From NCBI RefSeq assembly GCF_002843565.1, contig NZ_CP025257.1, forward strand, positions 558,001 to 622,000: DNA of 64,000 bases, written 5' to 3'. The DNA comes from Mesoplasma syrphidae. GTDB taxonomy: Bacteria; Bacillota_I; Bacilli_A; Mycoplasmatales; Mycoplasmataceae. Below are positions 8,784 to 8,945 of the stretch, one piece after another (within the stretch, counting starts at the first letter, position 1; the number at the start of each line of letters is the position of its first letter). The notes beneath the pieces are model-generated. The model was not told the DNA's origin and did no database searches. It was given only the letters and a program-made list of their open reading frames with translations. Position numbers and translations under genes: made by a program.

Positions 8784-8829
8784 GAAAAAACTAACATCTG
8801 TAATTCATACGAAAACACAGCTTTGTTAG
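8784..8829 (-). terminator. Riboswitch expression-platform terminator
   Basis: On the minus strand CTAACA...CTGT is paired with ACAG...TGTTAG and followed by TTTTTT, between the aptamer and the permease start. It is the obvious output structure of the riboswitch. Whether ligand raises or lowers termination cannot be settled by eye, because no clear antiterminator was found. Confidence 0.75.
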
Positions 8830-8835
8830 CTTTAT

Positions 8836-8899
8836 AACTCATAATCTTACATCGGTGCAAGGTAGAGACTCCTGCCCATTATGCAGGATTATATAAGTT
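8836..8899 (-). ncRNA. Purine riboswitch aptamer (adenine-type U74)
   Basis: The minus strand folds as a purine aptamer. P1 is AACUUAU/AUGAGUU and P2 is CCUGC/GCAGG with 7-nt loop AUAAUGG. The core J2/3 segment is GUCUCUACC. P3 is CUUGC/GUAAG with a short loop holding CC that could pair with the GG of L2. J3/1 reads A-U-U-A, so the base at the specificity position (74 in xpt numbering, window position 8844) is U, as in adenine aptamers, not C as in guanine aptamers. L3 looks one base shorter than usual. It lies directly upstream of a purine permease. Confidence 0.85.
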
Positions 8900-8907
8900 T
8901 TCTTATT

Positions 8908-8945
8908 AAGTTTATAAATTTATTTTACATTAAACTTATAAACTT
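8908..8945. repeat. 10-bp inverted repeat between dnaJ and the riboswitch
   Basis: AAGTTTATAA (8908-8917) and TTATAAACTT (8936-8945) are perfect inverted copies 18 bases apart. The element lies after the dnaJ stop and before the riboswitch. No T-tract follows on the minus strand, so it is a poor terminator and could be an operator or part of the promoter. Confidence 0.5.

Follow-up and report, generated by a model that had tools for sequence, protein, structure and literature searches.

The leader that lies between dnaJ and a purine permease gene in Mesoplasma syrphidae raises two questions, namely which purine it senses, and whether that purine raises or lowers the expression of the gene that follows. 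The window analysed here is a 64,000-nucleotide stretch of contig NZ_CP025257.1. A first-pass annotation, made from the letters of the window, had placed a purine riboswitch with an adenine-type specificity base upstream of a nucleobase permease and had left both questions open. The results favor, with a probability of about 0.8, an adenine-sensing riboswitch that would turn OFF, by transcription attenuation, the only NCS2/AzgA-type purine permease gene of the genome.

Identity and fold of the window aptamer

The first-pass annotation had proposed a covariance-model scan as a check. Rfam cmscan, which was run on the whole window with all Rfam families, matched the leader to the purine riboswitch family above the curated cut-off (Table 1), and this minus-strand element was the sole purine riboswitch in the window to exceed it. 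The element is a genuine purine riboswitch and an ordinary member of its family. P1, P2, J2/3, and P3 could be drawn with the coordinates and motifs that had been claimed, and every position of P1 to P3 was paired. The U that had been reported as the specificity base falls on position 74 of the covariance-model alignment. According to PMC8872408, position 74 pairs with the ligand in purine aptamers, and U74 is the base that marks the adenine class. The window aptamer combines U74 with U22, U47, and U51, which is the sequence signature of the adenine class; it carries U51 and so lacks the C51 of the 2'-dG-I class. The motifs of the predicted loop-loop contact, GG in L2 and CC in L3, are both present. 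By every sequence feature examined, the aptamer is of the adenine type. The minimum free energy (MFE) fold of the full leader contained a misfolded P2/P3 region and was 2.6 kcal/mol below the aptamer fold.

The loops L2 (AUAAUGG) and L3 (shortened) had also been singled out as departures that recall variant aptamers of Mesoplasma. Their sequences and the resemblance were borne out, but the loops are not peculiar to the window copy. In the set of related aptamers described below, an L3 of four nucleotides occurred in 17 of 19 U74 and 26 of 49 C74 aptamers, AUAAUGG was the L2 of 4 of the 19 and 8 of the 49, respectively, and CC in L3 was kept by 18 of the 19 U74 aptamers. The loops were thus ruled out as the mark of a special copy, because a short L3 is widespread in the clade. 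Variant purine aptamers of M. florum with shortened loops, some of which bind adenine or guanine, were reportedly described by Kim, Roth and Breaker in 2007; these share the shortened loops of the window copy and come from another species.

Table 1. Positions of the features of the permease leader (window numbering) and of the other purine leaders of the same genome (genome numbering, last three lines)
Feature	Position	Strand	Basis or detail
Purine riboswitch aptamer (RF00167)	8822..8916	-	55.9 bits (cut-off 37), E 6.8e-7
P1, 5' strand	8892..8899	-	paired with 8843-8836
P1, 3' strand	8836..8843	-	paired with 8899-8892
P2 with L2 AUAAUGG	8870..8888	-	stem 8888-8883/8875-8870, L2 8882-8876; compensatory changes
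J2/3, GUCUCUAC	8862..8869	-	U47 and U51 retained
P3 with 4-nt L3 CCGA	8846..8861	-	stem 8861-8856/8851-8846, L3 8855-8852; compensatory changes
J3/1, AU	8845-8844	-	between P3 and P1 3' strand
Position 74, U (adenine-type specificity base)	8844	-	second J3/1 base, covariance-model alignment
GAAAAC, 5' arm common to P1 and proposed antiterminator	8897..8902	-	sequence complementarity
Decoy GUUUUC, proposed antiterminator strand within terminator	8811..8816	-	exact complement of GAAAAC 8902-8897
Intrinsic terminator hairpin and U6 tract (8790-8785)	8785..8833	-	arms 8833-8824/8796-8787, inner stem 8820-8816/8802-8798
Putative -10 box TAAAAT of the leader's own promoter, between dnaJ (stop 8961) and aptamer	8922..8927	-	promoter scan and TAWAAT motif
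NCS2/AzgA-type purine permease, 518 aa	7185..8741	-	open under code 4, four TGA codons
U74 aptamer before purA	76924-77018		purA 77080-78378, purB directly after (match 78371-79657)
L003, A47, C51, C74 aptamer before nrdF	228787-228883	+	2'-dG-I-like
C74 aptamer before guaA	393893-393987		RF00167 match

U74 aptamers and their gene partners

A search of 60 genomes (that of the window and 59 relatives) gave 70 matches in 29 genomes. A separate scan of the window genome added L003, which the stricter filters of the larger search had missed, and the counts from the 60 genomes are therefore lower bounds. A script parsed 69 of the resulting 71 aptamers, and the two unparsed ones (L030 and L062) have C at position 74 by eye. 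The register of L066 (parsed as G) and L032 is uncertain, and neither has a U just before the 3' strand of P1. A downstream gene was assigned to 70 of the 71 aptamers (L071 has none), and these genes were grouped by BLAST. The representatives that were named by profiles comprised one each of purA, nrdF, guaA, guaB, and Bmp, and two of hpt, which scored just below the NCBIfam cut-off and above that of Pfam; the rest were named by BLAST clustering.

U74 was found in 19 of the 71 aptamers, 13 of them before a permease and six before purA. It was present in all six purA leaders and in half of the 26 permease leaders. None of the leaders of guaA (7), hpt (7, including one unparsed with C by eye), guaB (6), Bmp lipoprotein (11), and nrdF (2) was parsed as U74. 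The comparison of purA (6/6) with guaA, guaB, and hpt together (0/20) gave a Fisher p of 4.3e-6, for rows that are related and not independent. The occurrence of U74 leaders only before permease and purA genes fits adenine as the ligand and, together with U74 itself, supports the earlier reading of an adenine-type riboswitch before a nucleobase permease. The window switch very probably senses adenine.

The window genome (G000) contains four RF00167 matches, namely the window copy and the three others listed in Table 1, and its PurA, NrdF, and GuaA were named by profiles. C51, which is found in the nrdF leader, is given as the mark of 2'-deoxyguanosine aptamers in PMC8872408. Three aptamer types (adenine, guanine, and 2'-deoxyguanosine) would thus share one scaffold in a single small genome, and the gene behind each is one that the expected ligand would predict.

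Beyond the 71 aptamers, a further U74 permease leader (L086) was found in G060. A pattern derived from the U74 aptamers matched 11 stretches in seven organisms of a named genome collection: two each in Mesoplasma photuris, M. seiffertii, M. lactucae, and Acholeplasma multilocale, and one each in M. grammopterae, Spiroplasma sp. TIUS-1, and a Tissierella MAG. The pattern matches L091, L092, L093, and L105 lie within long frames of the opposite strand and were taken as chance.

Permease gene and putative promoter

The gene that follows the leader encodes a nucleobase permease, as had been claimed, with a match to PF00860 of 114 bits that is the only one in the 908,214-bp genome. Its nearest solved structures are the plant adenine/guanine permeases AZG1 and AZG2, and the NCBIfam profiles gave no name for it. 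A permease tree failed as a guide to adenine or guanine transport, the four E. coli adenine/guanine permeases forming one outgroup.

The promoter scan alone gave 3 sites in comparison with 2.1 in shuffles, which is no better than chance. A TAWAAT box that starts 28-32 nt upstream of P1 was found in 16 of the 19 U74 leaders, the exceptions being L006, L036, and L021, as a raw count with no shuffle control. According to PMC7745072, the promoter motif mapped in M. florum is TAWAAT, with no clear -35 box. The leader probably has a promoter of its own (Table 1).

Terminator, decoy, and predicted direction of control

The terminator with T6 that had been described after the aptamer was recovered as a hairpin that runs into a U6 tract. 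A simple terminator scan reported none at the window leader, probably because it is restricted to simple stems whose loops span 3-8. The terminator begins past the 3' strand of P1, has no base in common with the aptamer, and coexists with it in the predicted fold. The ligand thus has no way to abolish the terminator on binding, as it would by the route of pbuE.

Within the terminator lies the proposed antiterminator strand, or decoy, that is complementary to the 5' arm of P1. All 19 U74 leaders contained, in the 65 nt that follow P1, six consecutive bases exactly complementary to this arm, where dinucleotide shuffles predicted 2.0 such leaders; the leaders are related and are not 19 independent observations. 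In the same register, the other parsed leaders had a small excess (12 of 50 vs. 4.8 expected). Both strands were altered together in L006 and L010, the changes in the decoy matching those in the 5' arm of P1. A longest-complement test, leader by leader, was not significant (median p 0.28).

The fold prediction that gave the aptamer and terminator of the window leader together covered 18 of the 19 U74 leaders (all except L025), and seven of these (L002, L012, L008, L009, L010, L006, and L036) had been truncated at an early T-run, short of the terminator's end. In a separate comparison with shuffles at intermediate transcript lengths, no more than 2 of 40 shuffles equalled the decoy helix in five of the six purA leaders, the exception being L009 (13/40). 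Among the permease leaders (n = 13), only L021 (0/40) and L010 (4/40) stood out from shuffles; the others ranged from 7 to 35 of 40, and L016 was worse than most shuffles (35/40). The decoy helix of the window leader is short, with six pairs followed by a mismatch, and it was not separated from shuffles, 12 of 40 being equally good.

In partition-function folds of the growing transcript, the decoy helix of the purA leaders displaces P1 at intermediate lengths and later yields. In the window leader, the decoy fold was more stable than the P1 fold by 0.8-1.2 kcal/mol at transcript lengths of +38 to +46, but by +50 the P1 fold had overtaken it; both were drawn with a misfolded P2/P3. Its decoy and P1 states could thus be nearly balanced in these models, as a switch requires, though chance could give the same. 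The 5' arm of P1 in the window leader also paired with U-rich RNA past the terminator (P1 approximately 0.3 at +82 to +98). The nrdF and guaA leaders of the same genome had MFE folds with a similar long-range helix.

The arrangement of the window leader, with a terminator apart from the aptamer and a decoy strand complementary to the 5' arm of P1, corresponds to the platform plan of the 2'-dG-I switch. For the M. florum 2'-dG switch, measurements described in PMC12268651 and PMC5838219 indicate that an antiterminator strand competes with the ligand for the 5' arm of P1, with OFF logic, and that the full-length RNA adopts the OFF fold with or without ligand. By this model, adenine probably turns the permease gene OFF, which is the opposite of the textbook adenine riboswitches. 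An ON switch as in B. subtilis pbuE, in which adenine would disrupt the terminator and raise the permease, is quite unlikely. ON logic that buries pieces of the terminator is a described type among adenine riboswitches (PMC2258182), and the window leader shares U74 with that type, but its terminator uses no aptamer base, which leaves nothing in it for ligand binding to take away. Furthermore, an ON switch would presumably raise an importer and purA when adenine is already high.

Proposed mechanism of adenine OFF control

We infer the ligand, the OFF direction, and the promoter from features that were computed, namely the aptamer and its U74, the terminator and its independence, the conserved decoy, and the gene partners. 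RNA polymerase would start just downstream of dnaJ, and the aptamer would be made first. When adenine is abundant, it would pair with U74 and lock P1, and the 5' arm (GAAAACUUAUA) would be sequestered in P1; the terminator hairpin would then be unopposed, transcription would stop at the U-tract, and the permease gene would be OFF. When adenine is scarce, P1 would be loose, its 5' arm would pair with the decoy GUUUUC in the terminator, the hairpin would be delayed, and the permease would be made. With the sister leader on purA-purB, adenine would block the import of purines and also the conversion of IMP to AMP, which fits a cell that has an adenine phosphoribosyltransferase gene (apt), as this genome does. 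If the OFF reading is true, ON logic is not a fixed property of adenine riboswitches, and it is the platform that sets the direction.

A ligand other than adenine (guanine, hypoxanthine, or 2'-deoxyguanosine) despite U74 is very unlikely. Purine aptamers whose ligand has shifted are described in PMC9295807, one of them being from M. florum according to the title of a reference cited there, and in other members of the family C74 aptamers precede permeases of this cluster. On the other hand, U22, U47, U51, and A73 were kept in all 19 U74 aptamers, the partners of U74 are limited to purA and permease, and C51, which is linked to 2'-deoxyguanosine in PMC8872408, sits in nrdF leaders and not in the window copy.

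Comparison with known riboswitches

The adenine class (RF00167; B. subtilis pbuE and V. vulnificus add) shares with the window aptamer the three-way junction, U22/U47/U51, U74, GG in L2, and CC in L3. In contrast to pbuE and add, the window leader has a 4-nt L3, AUAAUGG as L2, a terminator outside the aptamer, and a predicted OFF logic. The pbuE gene encodes an efflux pump and add a deaminase, whereas leaders of the window type serve an importer and purA.

The M. florum 2'-dG-I riboswitch of a ribonucleotide reductase gene, as described in PMC12268651 and PMC5838219, has the same scaffold and platform plan, but the core of the window aptamer has U51 and U74, so adenine rather than 2'-deoxyguanosine would be expected. 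The counterpart of 2'-dG-I in the window genome is its own C51 leader before nrdF (L003). In the relative G023, a U74 aptamer (L017) precedes the same kind of permease as in the window; the 60-genome RF00167 search and the pattern search found no purA sister leader in that genome.

A search of the open-licence literature found no paper that joins 'adenylosuccinate synthetase' with 'adenine riboswitch', and among the papers listed there was neither an OFF switch for adenine nor a purA gene under adenine control. The aptamer itself belongs to an already known family, and the predicted direction of control is mildly unusual. Three points may be new, namely the OFF logic with adenine, the sister leader of purA-purB, and the likeness of the two leaders within the genomes of some species.

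Evolution of the specificity base

The permease tree contained 25 of the 26 permeases (the broken gene behind L025 was omitted) and four E. coli transporters. On this tree, the U74 label was clustered, with 4 changes in comparison with 9.5 in shuffled labels, and none of 500 shuffles was as low. All 12 U74 rows fell inside one group of 15 members with moderate support (87/91), in which G008, one of two G012 copies, and G022 were the C74 exceptions. The simplest reading of this distribution would be one gain, from C74 to U, that was followed by losses.

In the six genomes with both leaders, the purA and permease aptamers were alike within the genome (summed distance 16 vs. a mean of 44.8; 4 of 720 permutations reached so low a value), by a statistic to which plain shared ancestry also contributes. 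Concerted evolution or repeated copying is suggested by G001, G016, and G022, where each leader of the pair was closer to its partner than to its nearest ortholog. G003 had a tie on one side, and the orthologs were closer in the window genome and in G002. The permease leader of G022, L038 (G022:C1:513666-513760 -), has CC as J3/1 in an otherwise adenine-like aptamer, and its platform is a near copy of that of the G022 purA leader (L009). L038 is likely a natural return to guanine sensing.

The leader L025 (G031:C1:532818-532912 -) precedes a broken permease gene with a longest frame of 84 aa. Its aptamer is the only one of the 19 U74 aptamers with a mismatch in P2 and without CC in L3 (CAAA), and to judge by these changes it does show the decay of a riboswitch beside a dead gene. 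It is highly improbable that the window leader is likewise decaying or silent, with an aptamer-like sequence retained by descent without switching, as the weakness of its decoy helix and the decay in G031 might indicate, since the window copy is paired throughout P1-P3 and, over the length of the aptamer, identical to the permease copy of G002 (distance 0), and compensatory changes maintain the pairing across leaders. In the alignment of our own parser, which favors pairing, 378 of the 380 P1-P3 cells over the 19 U74 aptamers were paired, and two-sided changes occurred at 6 of the 20 pairs, all in P2 and P3.

An adenine OFF switch at the window permease would allow a tentative history of the Mesoplasma lineage, to which we give slightly less than even odds. 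A guanine OFF-switch before the permease would have become an adenine OFF-switch by the change of C74 to U and would then have been shared with purA-purB; concerted evolution would have kept the leaders alike in several species, and the permease copy of G022 would have gone back to C74. If this history is true, the lineage has an adenine regulon with a logic opposite to that of the studied adenine riboswitches, and it offers a natural series of variants in which a single scaffold has changed its ligand. The paired leaders of several species (U74 before purA, U74 or C74 before the permease) provide a test of how an RNA changes its ligand while keeping its gene.

Other purine aptamers in the relatives

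Several other aptamers were observed during the searches. L057 (G003:C3:60902-60998 +) is a C51, U47 aptamer before nrdF, and together with L003 it represents 2'-dG-I-like sensors in relatives of M. florum. The Tissierella MAG (L072) contains two purine aptamers (2756-2853 and 1787-1886); of these, the second carries U74 and lies before a long and a shorter frame that resemble purL and purE by eye, which is an unusual location for the adenine type. An aptamer-like element with UU as J3/1, L094 (G036:C2:642175-642209 -), stands before a gene resembling that of a solute-binding lipoprotein (by eye) and was not reported at the RF00167 cut-off. In the same genome, L011 (G036:C2:738626-738722 +) is a C74 purine aptamer before an adenosine deaminase frame. 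In G002, L042 (G002:C5:16499-16593 +) is a C74 purine aptamer before a lipoprotein of the phosphonate-binding type.
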